NCBI RefSeq assembly: GCF_000469155.1
Contig: NZ_AWXE01000001.1
Location: 186,001-250,000, forward strand
Length of the DNA: 64,000 bases
Source: Candidatus Micropelagos thuwalensis
GTDB taxonomy: Bacteria > Pseudomonadota > Alphaproteobacteria > RS24
Direction: 5' to 3'
Part shown: one piece after another, positions 13,809 to 63,390 of the stretch
Layout: each line of letters begins with the position of its first letter
Position numbering within the stretch: the stretch's first letter is position 1
Notes under the pieces: model-generated
Database searches by the model: none
What the model saw: only the letters and a program-made list of their open reading frames with translations
What the model was told of the DNA's origin: nothing
Position numbers and translations under genes: made by a program

Positions 13809-14363
13809 ATGTCTGCTGATATGGATGATTTACAAAGACGCATGGAAGGGGCTTTAAACACCCTGAAAAGCGATTTTGGTGGCTTGAGAACAGGCCGTGC
13901 CAGCACAACGCTACTCGAACCTATTATGGTGGAGGCTTATGGGCAGCAAATGCCAATGTCTCAAGTAGGTACGATTTCAGCACCGGAGCCACGCCTTCTT
14001 TCTGTTCAGGTATGGGATAAAGGGCAGGTTTCCTTTGTTGAAAAAGCTATACGTGAGGCTGGATTGGGATTGAACCCGATGGCGGATGGCCAAATGGTTC
14101 GTGTGCCATTGCCCGAACTCAATGAAGAACGCCGTGAGGAGTTGGTCAAAATTGCGGGTAAATATGCCGAGCAATGCCGCGTTGCTGTTCGGAACGTTAG
14201 ACGTGACGGCATGGATCAGCTTAAAAAAGGTGAAAAAGACGGCGAGATTAGTCAGGACGAACAAAAGTCACTTTCTGATGATGTGCAAAAGTTAACTGAT
14301 GATTACGTTGAAAAGATCGACGAAGCGCTTTCGCAAAAAGAAGCTGAAATCCGTCAGGTTTAA
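13809..14363 (+). CDS. frr: Ribosome recycling factor
   Basis: This 184-residue factor, with EF-G, splits the post-termination ribosome. Domain I helices and the inserted domain II (about residues 31-104) are intact. The motif [13 protein letters not shown] (97-109) and the helix [14 protein letters not shown] (126-139), with the essential arginines, are present. It lies just after pyrH and 27 bases before uppS. It is the reference used here to recognise the divergent RRF-like protein at 59688-60395. Confidence 0.97.
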
Positions 14364-58316: not shown

Positions 58317-59564
58317 CTAATTGTTGATTATGAGTTGATTGATAATGCCACGAACAATCAGCTTTATCACTGGTGGTTCGAATGACAATTCCCTCGAGAC
58401 ATCTTTAGAGCGGACTTCAAATAAATCTGTATCAGTTTTGGCAACCAATCTTGCTGTGCGGGGCATGCTTGTCAAGGCGGCTATTTCACCAAAGGATTGG
58501 CCGGATGTGAGATTGGCAAGTACTTTACCGGTTTCATCGACAACATTCATCGAGCCTTCTGAGATATAAAAGAAAGTGTCACTTTTATCTCCGACATCAA
58601 ATAGTATTTCGCCTTCTTTAATATTGAAATGGTTATAGCGATCGAGTTGATTGATGAATCGATCATCGACCAGATGATGTGATGAACGTTCTTTTTGTCC
58701 CATAATCCGGTCATGCGTGTATTTGATAATGCCGCGGGTGAGGGGGCGTAAATTATCAATGGCAGATTTGATAATACCAAAATCAATAATAGCTACTTTG
58801 ACATAGCCCTCAGTTCGATAATCAAAATGAATTTTATTTGGGGCCAGCACTTCCGCTGCACCAATCATACTTCCTTCGCCCAGCAGATATTCATTCGTGA
58901 ATGAGTCGTAATATCTAACGCGCCCCTCAAGGATGCAGTAGCAAGCATTCAAGGGCGTGCCTTTGCTAATCATGCTGTCATTGAGTTTACCTATCTCGAT
59001 TTCCCGACCCATTTCGTTGAGAATTTTTAAGGTTTCTTTAGATTTGATAATCTTGCGCCCTTTTTCATCAATATTAGGCGTTTTGGGCATTTCAGTTGGC
59101 AAGACAGATGAAGAGTTTTCACTCTCTGAAATCACTTGAGCAATTTTTTCAAAGCGATCTGAGGGACTATTTACAGCAGGCTTTTGGTCCTTTGCGGGCA
59201 TTTTTTCATTGTTGGTGCGGCTTGGCACGTCGGCAAGAATGTTTGCAAGGTGTTGGTCAGTATTTTCCGAACTGAGATCATCAATCTCATCCTCAATTTT
59301 TTCCTTCGCTAAGTCGGCTGGTGTTTCAGTGTTATCCTGAAAACCGGCTACCAAAGGGTGAGTTGCAGGTGTGGGAGCTACTTCATGAGTAGTATCTTGG
59401 TGAGGCGTAATGGCTTTGTTAACAACTTCTTGTGCGGGCTCATCAATGAAGTACTCCATATCCTCATCATTATCCAGCCACACGGACGCATCATCGGCAT
59501 ATTCAGCCAACATATCGCGAAGATATTTTGCTCTTTCTTTAATGTCGTCTACTGTTCTTTGCAT
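58317..59564 (-). CDS. Protein with two cyclic-nucleotide-binding domains and no output domain
   Basis: This 415-residue protein begins with a short helix, then a disordered Asp/Glu/Pro-rich region to about residue 175. Two cyclic-nucleotide-binding folds follow, at about 185-275 and 310-405. The second has an intact phosphate-binding cassette, SFGEIAALTSMPRTARL, with Glu360 and Arg369, so it could bind cAMP or cGMP. The first (GSMIGAAEVLAPNK) lacks that Glu/Arg pair. There is no helix-turn-helix, kinase or membrane segment. It resembles a regulatory subunit. The RRF-like gene is 123 bases upstream on the same strand. Confidence 0.8.
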   Translation of the reverse strand: MQRTVDDIKERAKYLRDMLAEYADDASVWLDNDEDMEYFIDEPAQEVVNKAITPHQDTTHEVAPTPATHPLVAGFQDNTETPADLAKEKIEDEIDDLSSENTDQHLANILADVPSRTNNEKMPAKDQKPAVNSPSDRFEKIAQVISESENSSSVLPTEMPKTPNIDEKGRKIIKSKETLKILNEMGREIEIGKLNDSMISKGTPLNACYCILEGRVRYYDSFTNEYLLGEGSMIGAAEVLAPNKIHFDYRTEGYVKVAIIDFGIIKSAIDNLRPLTRGIIKYTHDRIMGQKERSSHHLVDDRFINQLDRYNHFNIKEGEILFDVGDKSDTFFYISEGSMNVVDETGKVLANLTSGQSFGEIAALTSMPRTARLVAKTDTDLFEVRSKDVSRELSFEPPVIKLIVRGIINQLIINN

Positions 59565-59687: not shown

Positions 59688-60395
59688 TTAATCAAGCACG
59701 TGTGCAACTGTGGACATTTTACGGGCAAGAATGACGTCATCCTCGTCGGATAGCTTGAATTGGTTTTTTAAAACATCTTTGTGCTTAACAAAGAAAATCA
59801 ATTTAGCTGTTTTAATGTAGTGATCGATGATTTTCTCGATTTCTTTGGTTGCTTTTGCTGCATCCGGGCCGAAAATAAATTCATTTTGAAGCCCGGCTCT
59901 GATTTGTTGCATAGACTGGTTTTTTACCATCATCACATTTTTTTGGTAATTTTTAAACTTGCTTTCAATGAAGTCAGCAAGCTCAAACCTTTTTTCCAAA
60001 TCCATTTTTGGAAGTTTGACCGTAATAAGGCCGTCCTCCGCATTTTCTTCAACCTGTTTAAAGTTTTTTTCTTCTTTGAGGATTTTAATTACGGCAGTTC
60101 GCGCTTCAGCATCTGTTGAACGTAATTCAATTCGATCCAAAAAGGCTTGCACATTGACTAAGTCCATGGCTCGGCGCGATTTCTTTTTAACAACAATTTT
60201 TGTGTTTCTGAGGATTTGGTTATTTTCCTCTGAGGTACCGGCTTCGCGTATTTCTTTCACAAAAGTGATGAAGCGGTCACGCATCCGAGACTCGAACGAG
60301 TCGCTGTAGCTCATTAATTCTGTATTTTTCTTGAAGAAGAGGTTCTCGAGAAGTAACTCAAGAGCTTCATCGTCCATTAACGCACTATTACTCAT
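59688..60395 (-). CDS. Uncharacterised protein resembling ribosome recycling factor
   Basis: This 235-residue protein is charged and mostly helical, with no signal or membrane segment. Residues 121-166 align without gaps to residues 94-139 of the RRF in this window: TVKLPKMDLEKRFEL against [15 protein letters not shown], and VMMVKNQSMQQIR against [13 protein letters not shown]. Weaker similarity continues on both sides. The essential RRF arginine at residue 132 is Asn here, so it is not a standard RRF. An extra 30 N-terminal and 40 C-terminal residues are present. The resemblance is my reading of the sequence and has not been tested by a search. It is followed by the dual cyclic-nucleotide protein. 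Confidence 0.6.
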   Translation of the reverse strand: MSNSALMDDEALELLLENLFFKKNTELMSYSDSFESRMRDRFITFVKEIREAGTSEENNQILRNTKIVVKKKSRRAMDLVNVQAFLDRIELRSTDAEARTAVIKILKEEKNFKQVEENAEDGLITVKLPKMDLEKRFELADFIESKFKNYQKNVMMVKNQSMQQIRAGLQNEFIFGPDAAKATKEIEKIIDHYIKTAKLIFFVKHKDVLKNQFKLSDEDDVILARKMSTVAHVLD

Positions 60396-60587: not shown

Positions 60588-61376
60588 ATGTCATTAGATC
60601 AAAAGCAGATACTGTCTGCAGCCACCGCCATTCGGGAGGCCTATGAGACTAAATCTCCGATTGATGCTTTGCGCAAAAGCTATGACATGGAAATCGACGA
60701 TGCTTATGCTGTCCAGGAAGAAAACACAAAATACTGGTTAAAGCAGGGTCGGCTATTGAGTGGGCGTAAAATTGGTGTAACCTCTCACGCCGTGCAAAGT
60801 CAGCTTGGTGTCAATCAGCCGGATTTTGGTATGTTGTTTTCTGACATGGCTTTTGCAGACGGGCAGGAGATTTCCATGTCTCATTTACTTCAGCCCCGCA
60901 TTGAAGGTGAAATTGCCTTTTATCTTGGTAAAGATCTCGATAGTACAGGCATTACGCTGGCGGAGGTTTTGTCGGCCATAGAATATGCTGTCGCTGCGAT
61001 TGAGGTTGTTGATAGCCGCATCGCTGCTTGGGATATTCAAATCACAGATACAATTGCCGATAATGCCTCTTCAGGCCTTTATGTATTAGGTTCTCGTCCG
61101 GTCAAGCTGGATGCTTTCGACCATCTGAATTGCGGCATGGTCATTGAGAATAATGGTGAAGTTGTATGTTCGGGGCAAGGCTCCGCCTGTCTCGGTAATC
61201 CCCTCAATGCATGTCTTTGGCTGGCGCAGATGATGATTAAATATGGTCGCCCTCTCAAGGCAGGGGATTTAATTCTGTCTGGTGCGCTCGGGCCGTTAAC
61301 GCAAGTTGAGGGTGGGCAGGTTTATGAAATGAAAATCGAAGGGCTTGGTTCAGTACGCGCTGATTTTACAGCTTGA
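60588..61376 (+). CDS. mhpD: 2-oxopent-4-enoate hydratase family protein
   Basis: This 262-residue enzyme of the fumarylacetoacetase-like hydratase family should add water to 2-hydroxypenta-2,4-dienoate, giving 4-hydroxy-2-oxopentanoate. GRKIGVTSHAVQSQLGV, PRIEGEIAFYL and the C-terminal GDLILSGALGPL are family motifs. GAGGGAAT lies upstream of the ATG. The next two genes catalyse the following steps, which supports the assignment. Confidence 0.9.
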   Translation: MSLDQKQILSAATAIREAYETKSPIDALRKSYDMEIDDAYAVQEENTKYWLKQGRLLSGRKIGVTSHAVQSQLGVNQPDFGMLFSDMAFADGQEISMSHLLQPRIEGEIAFYLGKDLDSTGITLAEVLSAIEYAVAAIEVVDSRIAAWDIQITDTIADNASSGLYVLGSRPVKLDAFDHLNCGMVIENNGEVVCSGQGSACLGNPLNACLWLAQMMIKYGRPLKAGDLILSGALGPLTQVEGGQVYEMKIEGLGSVRADFTA

Positions 61377-61417
61377 GATTTAAATAGCCTTCTAAATTGA
61401 GATGAAAAGAAAGTAAT

Positions 61418-62356
61418 ATGTCCAAAATTAAATGTGCTCTTATCGGTTCAGGAAATATCGGAACCGACCTGTTAATCAAAATTCAGGAAACCTCGGATAT
61501 TCTTGAAGCGGCTCTTGTGATTGGTATTGACGCTGACTCCGACGGTCTCCGTATAGCACGTGAGCGTGGTGTGGCAACCACCCATGAGGGCATTGAGGGG
61601 GCGGTGGCGTCTGATATATGGTCAGAGATTGTAATTTGCTTCGATGCAACGTCGGCAGGCGCGCATAAAATCCATAACGAAATCTGTGTACGCGATGGCA
61701 AATTGATGGTGGATTTGACGCCGGCGGCTATTGGCCCGTTTTGTATCCCTCCCGTTAATGCCGATGAGCATGTAGACAAGCAGAATGTGAATATGGTGAC
61801 CTGCGGCGGGCAAGCCACCATTCCAATGGTCTATGCTGTTACCCGTGTGAGCGACAGCGTACCTTATGCCGAAATCGTAGCTTCTGTTTCGTCGCGCTCT
61901 GCGGGGCCGGGCACACGTGCCAATATTGATGAATTTACAGAAACCACCGCGCGCGGCGTTGAGGTGATTGGCGGGGCAGAAAAAGGTAAGGCGATTATTA
62001 TTCTCAATCCTGCCGAACCGCCCATGATTATGCGCGACACAATCTATGCGTTTTCAGTTGGCGGCGAGGAAGATAAAATCCGCCAAAGCGTTGAGGATAT
62101 GGTTGCCGAGGTTCAGAAATATGTGCCGGGCTATCGCCTGAAACAAGAAGTTCAATTTGAGCGCTTTACCGGCAATAGCCGTCTTAAAATCCCGGGGCAG
62201 GGTGAATATGAAGGCGTTAAAACAACGATTTTCCTTGAGGTAGAAGGTGCGGGTCATTATCTGCCGAATTATGCGGGTAATCTCGACATTATGACATCTG
62301 CGGGTATGGCAACCGCCGAACGCATGGCGACAAAAGTACGAGGGGGTGTGGCATGA
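61418..62356 (+). CDS. mhpF: Acetaldehyde dehydrogenase (acylating)
   Basis: This 312-residue enzyme oxidises acetaldehyde to acetyl-CoA with NAD. The nucleotide site is IGSGNIG (residues 9-15) and the catalytic cysteine is Cys129 in [11 protein letters not shown]. It normally channels acetaldehyde from the aldolase encoded next. Its stop overlaps the aldolase start by four bases. Confidence 0.95.
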
Positions 62357-63390
62357 GTGGCTTTTTGAAAGATCCTACCAAAGAAAAACTTTATATTCAG
62401 GATGTTACCTTGCGCGATGGTATGCATGCTATCCGACACATGTATGGCATTGATCATGTAGCAATGATTGCCAAGGCGCTCGACGAAGCTGGTGTTGATG
62501 CGATTGAAGTCGCACATGGTGATGGTCTTTCCGGCGCCAGCTTTAATTACGGGTTCGGCGCGCATACCGATTGGGAATGGATTGAAGCCGTTGCCGATGT
62601 GATTGATAATGCTGTTCTGACAACGCTCATTCTGCCGGGTATTGCGACGGTTGAGGAATTAAAGCGGGCTTATGACCTTGGTGTGCGGTCTGTGCGTGTT
62701 GCCACGCATTGCACAGAAGCAGATGTGTCCAAACAGCATATTGGTATTGCGCGGGATTTGGGGATGGACACCATCGGCTTTTTAATGATGAGCCATATGA
62801 GTGAGCCAGAGCAACTTGCAGAGCAAGCCAAGCTGATGGAAAGCTATGGCGCGACCACGGTTTACGTCACTGACAGTGGCGGGGCTTTGGATATGGATGG
62901 CTATGCGGCGCGTGTGCGGGCTTATTGTGATATTTTAGACCCGGCGACAGAAATTGGTGTGCATGCCCATCACAATTTATCTTTAGGGGTTGCGAACTCG
63001 ATTGTTGCTGTTCAAAACGGCGTGCGGCGCGTGGATGCGTCTTTGGCGGGCATGGGTGCGGGGGCAGGTAATGCCCCACTGGAAGTGTTTATCGCGGCGG
63101 CTGACCGGAAGGGCTGGCAGCATGGTTGCGATGTATACAAACTTATGGATGCTGCCGAAGAATTGGTGCGCCCATTGCAAGACCGCCCGGTTAGGGTTGA
63201 TCGGGAAACGCTCTCATTGGGTTATGCGGGTGTGTATTCTTCCTTCTTGCGTCATGCGGAAAAAGCGTCAGAAGATTACGGCATTGATGTCCGTACAATT
63301 TTGGTTGAACTTGGCAGACGCCGCATGGTTGGCGGACAAGAAGATATGATTGTCGATGTCGCGCTCGACCTCCTGAAACAACAAAATTAG
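62353..63390 (+). CDS. mhpE: 4-hydroxy-2-oxovalerate aldolase
   Basis: This 345-residue TIM-barrel aldolase of the DRE-TIM family splits 4-hydroxy-2-oxovalerate into pyruvate and acetaldehyde. [14 protein letters not shown] supplies Arg21, Asp22 and His25, and [13 protein letters not shown] the metal histidines. With the upstream genes it completes the lower branch of a meta-cleavage pathway. The ring-cleavage genes that would feed it are not in the window. Confidence 0.95.

Follow-up and report, generated by a model that had tools for sequence, protein, structure and literature searches.

The RRF* gene and the canonical frr of the window

The window, which is the whole stretch of 64,000 nucleotides analyzed here, contains two genes related to ribosome recycling factor (RRF), a textbook essential factor. 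The canonical frr is part of an rpsB-tsf-pyrH-frr operon. The second gene, denoted here as RRF*, is located 45 kb from this operon and corresponds to a real open reading frame that is conserved across relatives. These two genes are exactly the RRF matches above the Pfam cut-off in the whole genome. The features used in this report are listed below.

13809..14363, plus strand: canonical frr, intact, in rpsB-tsf-pyrH-frr-uppS, for comparison only (Pfam RRF, 216 bits)
58317..59564, minus strand: neighbour of 415 residues with two cyclic-nucleotide-binding (cNMP) matches, a proposed partner (PF00027, E 1.5e-21; synteny)
59688..60395, minus strand: RRF* gene, encoding a divergent RRF paralogue of 235 residues (Pfam RRF, AlphaFold2 model, dN/dS)
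60312..60395, minus strand: N-terminal extension, residues 1-28, with a single short helix at 9-19 (AlphaFold2 secondary structure, alignment)
60243..60311, minus strand: domain I helix 1, residues 29-51 (AlphaFold2 model)
60015..60200, minus strand: domain II, residues 66-127, alpha/beta, with the conserved R74-R75-x-x-D78 that is new in the family (alignment, AlphaFold2 model)
59886..59999, minus strand: domain I helix 2, residues 133-170, with Lys158 at the position of E. coli R132 (alignment, AlphaFold2 model, HHalign)
59922..59924, minus strand: codon for Lys158, the equivalent of E. coli R132 (alignment)
59760..59870, minus strand: domain I helix 3, residues 176-212 (AlphaFold2 model)
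59691..59759, minus strand: C-terminal extension, residues 213-235, with two short helices (AlphaFold2 model)

Divergent from RRF*, at 60588-63390 on the plus strand, are three genes that resemble a lower meta-cleavage pathway (2-oxopent-4-enoate hydratase, acetaldehyde dehydrogenase, and 4-hydroxy-2-oxovalerate aldolase, as judged from their sequences by eye).

The initial annotation had described an RRF-like protein outside the frr locus, from an ungapped match of residues 121-166 to residues 94-139 of the window RRF at an offset of 27. This match was reproduced (11 of 46 residues identical, BLOSUM62 score of 43). The best ungapped local alignment of the two proteins covers query residues 119-195 with a score of 75; 2000 shuffles gave 35 ± 6, and none reached 75. 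The Pfam RRF profile (PF01765) was found to match residues 48-209 over profile positions 4-164 of 164 (E 5.5e-7) with a score of 30.0 bits, which is borderline above the gathering cut-off of 29.7, and at E ≤ 0.01 it matches 32 of the 43 RRF* proteins assembled in this work. HHalign aligned the RRF* family with canonical RRFs over 175 columns (probability 97.6, E 4.5e-12). RRF* is a full-length RRF homologue, and this homology is firm. It is not an frr equivalog, because its score of 23.8 bits is far under the TIGR00496 cut-off of 149.1 and a normal frr is present in the rpsB-tsf-pyrH-frr operon. At E ≤ 0.01, 15 of the 43 members match TIGR00496 at all.

The AlphaFold2 model of RRF*, calculated from the 43-member alignment, has a mean pLDDT of 88.6, and its elements follow the order found in RRF: a helix (29-51), an alpha/beta segment (66-127), and two long helices (133-170 and 176-212). 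The predicted fold is a three-helix bundle with an inserted alpha/beta domain, and every PDB match at E ≤ 0.001 (25 in all) is an RRF. The best VIA-align 2 match is to the RRF from Bacillus anthracis (4gfq; Z 14.3, rmsd 3.1) over 184 residues; since helical bundles inflate Z, it is the coverage of both domains that counts. For another member, encoded at a motA-motB locus, the model has a pLDDT of 86.7, the same fold, and a list of top matches composed only of RRFs. Other three-helix bundles that match by shape (designed binders, Bcl-2 inhibitors, and epitope scaffolds) were set aside because they cover domain I only and several were designed from RRF. The initial annotation had named a profile search and a predicted structure as the checks on its proposal that the genome encodes a second RRF fold in altered form, and the match above the gathering score and the two-domain model both bear this proposal out. 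For its further suggestion that the protein may bind ribosomes without recycling them, the evidence is neutral: most arginines on the rRNA side are lost, and the neighbouring genes relate to flagella and signalling, not translation.

Membership, conserved residues, and distribution of RRF*

The 43 members score 170-282 bits on the RRF* family profile (lowest 170.6) and at most 34.6 bits on the canonical profile. Conversely, canonical RRFs score no more than 68 bits on the RRF* profile and at least 257 bits on their own. The window protein, with 251.5 bits on the RRF* profile versus 23.4 bits on the canonical profile, is therefore a member of RRF*. In the phylogenetic tree all RRF* members constitute one clade (100/100), apart from the canonical RRFs. 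RRF* is a sharply bounded, monophyletic paralogue family that is apparently undescribed.

The invariant arginines of RRF face the rRNA. Six of them (R28, R31, R109, R110, R129, and R132 in E. coli) are arginine in 54 of 54 canonical RRFs, and RRF* lacks this full set, which would be expected of an Frr equivalog. The first five are mostly other residues in the 43 RRF* members, often neutral or acidic ones, and the position of R132 is lysine in 40 of 43. The assignment of Arg132 to Asn in the initial annotation was a misnumbering that stems from the numbering of the window RRF, where position 132 corresponds to E. coli R133. The counterpart of E. coli R132 in the window RRF is R131, which aligns with Lys158, and E. 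coli R133 aligns with Asn159. The accompanying statement that neighbouring arginines are lost holds for the family, where R28, R31, R109, R110, and R129 are largely replaced, but fails at the R110 position of the window protein, which is still arginine (R136). A new near-invariant set has appeared in RRF*, consisting of Y30, R74 (41/43), R75, D78, K158, E172 (41/43), and I174; the window protein has all of K158, R74, E172, and I174. Within PS1 the dN/dS of RRF* is ~0.03, a value that is only rough because dS is near saturation, but strong purifying selection is still clear.

RRF* was located in 8 of 28 PS1 genomes and, by profile search, in 76 of the 136 SAR116-order genomes and in a third family, f9; a contig scan with a narrower alignment (A4) recovered only PS1 and a part of SAR116. 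Relatives of the window protein occur in two genera of its family, its own and one other; these are PS1-clade bacteria and include Alpha proteobacterium IMCC14465. RRF* was found in no other family among the 385 alphaproteobacteria and 398 Pseudomonadota sampled; because these are samples, rare occurrences elsewhere are possible. A canonical frr is also present in those RRF*-bearing genomes that were checked. The PS1 sequences are nested within a 16-member clade whose other members are SAR116 sequences (100/100; inner join 95/80), a placement that fits if PS1 received the gene from a SAR116-like donor. From these sequence relationships, the PS1 gene was probably gained in this way. Organellar RRF sequences were left out of the tree, and its deeper branching order is unsure, with long branches.

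Several individual records deserve comment. The f9 genomes, despite a size of 1.4 Mb, each carry two different RRF* copies plus frr (L050:6468-7067 and L051:6534-7145); copy A is within a flagellar block and copy B is outside it. The contig NZKY01000075.1, a public MAG record with the title 'Opitutia bacterium', encodes a protein with 99% identity to the window RRF* and is probably a mislabelled PS1-clade contig. One SAR116 bin (G501) with 7% contamination contains two near-identical RRF* loci (L175:745-1467 and L176:5981-6703) and four flhA matches, and therefore probably represents mixed strains.

Other candidates were rejected. Weak second PF01765 matches in many other alphaproteobacteria (E 0.001-0.1) are partial, lie inside long unrelated open reading frames, and were dropped. 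The candidates from genomes G062 and G095 are canonical frr genes split over contigs or open reading frames, and that from G203 is a canonical fragment adjoining uppS at a contig end. With regard to a viral origin, there were no IMG/VR relatives of the window protein or of the RRF-BLUF fusion described below, and no PHROG match. With regard to a defence system, RRF* has no PADLOC match.

Flagellar and signalling genes near RRF*

In 12 loci from one family of the SAR116 order, motB is followed on the same strand by RRF* with a gap of 15-48 bp, and a thirteenth, which belongs to a different family of this order, has a gap of 167 bp (MotA and MotB neighbours were assigned by Pfam). The block that contains copy A in family f9 is composed of motA, motB, RRF*, flhB, fliR, fliP, and a fliN-type gene, with rpoN nearby. 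Flagellar linkage is present in separate branches of the RRF* tree, and a position beside motA-motB and flagellar export genes is likely ancestral. RRF* is outside the flagellar cluster in many lineages (g235, g114, and f176), and no flagellar gene adjoins it in the window itself.

In the order to which PS1 belongs, FlhA and RRF* are limited to the same two of six genera (Fisher p 0.009, kinship ignored), and this genus-level match holds even though RRF* there does not adjoin flagellar genes. Among SAR116-order genomes that are at least 90% complete, 23 have both RRF* and flagella, 2 have RRF* only, 10 have flagella only, and 8 have neither (Fisher p 0.009, kinship ignored); both tests are confounded by kinship, and incomplete bins add noise. 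Since ten of these genomes are flagellated without RRF*, the protein is an accessory and not a required part of the motor.

In the window, the gene for the 415-residue cNMP protein is downstream of RRF* on the same strand after a gap of 123 bp, and this arrangement is syntenic in five genomes of the genus (PS1 genus g1). The C-terminal cNMP match has a phosphate-binding-cassette-like FGEIAALTSMPRTARLVA, and this domain matches single-domain cNMP proteins near RRF* in the SAR116 order. These proteins are found at four loci (L146-L148 and L166) that fall in two related groups, 108-1125 bp from RRF*, and a fifth is 4.3 kb away (L173). No effector domain was found in the 415-residue protein; with PADLOC only the cyclic-nucleotide-binding part of Pycsar effectors was matched. 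At one SAR116 locus (L146:4528-5258, minus strand), two small adjacent genes beside RRF* encode a cNMP-binding protein and a protein of 133 residues without a Pfam match. The latter may be a degenerate cNMP domain, and the pair resembles a split form of the 415-residue neighbour.

An RRF-BLUF fusion of 415 residues (L055:5566-6813, minus strand) was seen once, in a complete SAR116 genome of 2,753,527 bp. The RRF part spans residues 36-198 and the BLUF domain residues 256-344 (E 2.9e-24), in which the Tyr and Gln expected in working BLUF domains appear by inspection to be kept. The gene adjoins those for a FliA-like sigma factor and a FlgF/G-like protein and is ~8 kb from flhA. This fusion is apparently undescribed.

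Possible function of RRF* and comparison with known systems

The residues with which RRF grips the ribosome are mostly lost and the neighbours are motor and signalling genes, which suggests exaptation into a regulator of cell behaviour. We infer that RRF* no longer recycles, acts in motility, and is fed by cyclic-nucleotide or light signals. The best reading, held with about even confidence, is that RRF* is a paralogue that has kept the fold, left the recycling pathway, and become a signal-linked accessory regulator of flagellar motility. Such a protein would leave recycling to the normal frr product and its RRF shape would serve for binding a protein partner in the motor or its regulatory circuit. 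The control signal would differ by lineage, with a cyclic nucleotide acting through the adjacent cNMP protein in PS1 and light sensed by the BLUF domain in a single SAR116 genome. After its gain from a SAR116-like donor, the PS1 protein would pair with the cNMP protein at 58317-59564. It is proposed more tentatively that the fold of an ancient, essential translation factor was recruited away from the ribosome to regulate flagellar motility under the control of signals, in motA-motB-RRF* operons and in cNMP-partnered and BLUF-fused versions, and that horizontal transfer accounts for part of its spread among abundant marine alphaproteobacteria. Counted against the motility reading is K158, which leaves the R132 site positively charged; some contact with RNA or the ribosome through this residue is possible.

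The main rival is that RRF* is still a ribosome ligand, specialised for hibernation, for splitting a subset of ribosomes, or for adjusting, close to the export apparatus, how flagellar or secreted proteins are translated. Its binding site would then be the A/P-site cleft, as for RRF, but the contacts would be altered. We regard this as unlikely. In its favour, the whole two-domain fold is retained despite large sequence divergence, 40 of 43 members have lysine at the R132 position, and some members are basic (pI 7.8 for the window protein and 9.4 for L150). There is also precedent in the chloroplast and mitochondrial RRFs, which occur on ribosomes together with hibernation or EF-G2 factors. 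However, five of the six arginines are mostly gone, often in favour of neutral or acidic residues, the net charge of members ranges from -25 to +9, unlike that of a protein held by rRNA, and the gene neighbours are flagellar and signalling rather than translational.

It is rather improbable that RRF* is a signalling or protein-binding module of general use whose flagellar neighbourhood is an inherited position without functional meaning. In support of this, several lineages have lost the flagellar linkage of the gene, and cNMP or BLUF modules recur with it instead, but the narrow motB-RRF* spacing retained in 12 loci, the flagellar linkage in separate branches of the tree, and the FlhA match among the PS1 genera, where RRF* does not adjoin flagellar genes, all argue against it. 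That RRF* is a further active recycling factor, either duplicating frr or serving some particular condition, is very improbable; the Pfam score is above the cut-off, but the TIGR00496 score is far below its own, the invariant arginines are lost, and a canonical frr accompanies RRF* wherever this was checked. A decaying frr duplication or a chance alignment, for which the borderline Pfam score of the window protein might speak, is refuted by the low dN/dS within PS1, the sharp boundary around 43 members, and the complete fold.

We know of no bacterial family of RRF paralogues with another job, and in the open-access literature we found nothing linking RRF with SAR116, BLUF, or an RRF-like paralogue. 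If RRF* acts off the ribosome, it shows the re-use of a tRNA-sized, ribosome-shaped protein, apparently in motility control, and its hosts, which are free-living, are among the commonest bacteria of the ocean. The RRF-BLUF fusion offers a light-addressable handle on function, and the presence of a canonical and an altered RRF in one cell provides an internal control for the effect of the lost arginines.

By analogy only, RRF* as a motility regulator would resemble the PilZ protein YcgR, in that both would be signal-controlled accessories dispensable for building the flagellum; YcgR has no sequence or fold relation to RRF* and reads c-di-GMP through its PilZ domain. The organellar RRFs (mtRRF and chloroplast RRF) share with RRF* the RRF fold and an N-terminal extension, and their structures (6nu2, 7nsh, and 6eri) match the RRF* model. 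Those proteins, however, are the sole RRF of the organelle and act on the ribosome; RRF* is additional to the normal frr product and branches apart from the clade of canonical RRFs. With Frr (PF01765, TIGR00496), RRF* has in common the whole two-domain fold, the order in which the helices and domain II occur, the LP motif at 128-129, and the pairing of helices 2 and 3. It differs from Frr in an identity of 14-17%, in the loss of most rRNA-side arginines with R132 replaced by lysine, in an RR-x-x-D motif in domain II in place of the canonical Y-G-x-x-x-P segment, in N- and C-terminal extensions (residues 1-28 and 213-235) that canonical RRF lacks, and in a location outside the rpsB-tsf-pyrH operon in a genome that also carries the normal frr.
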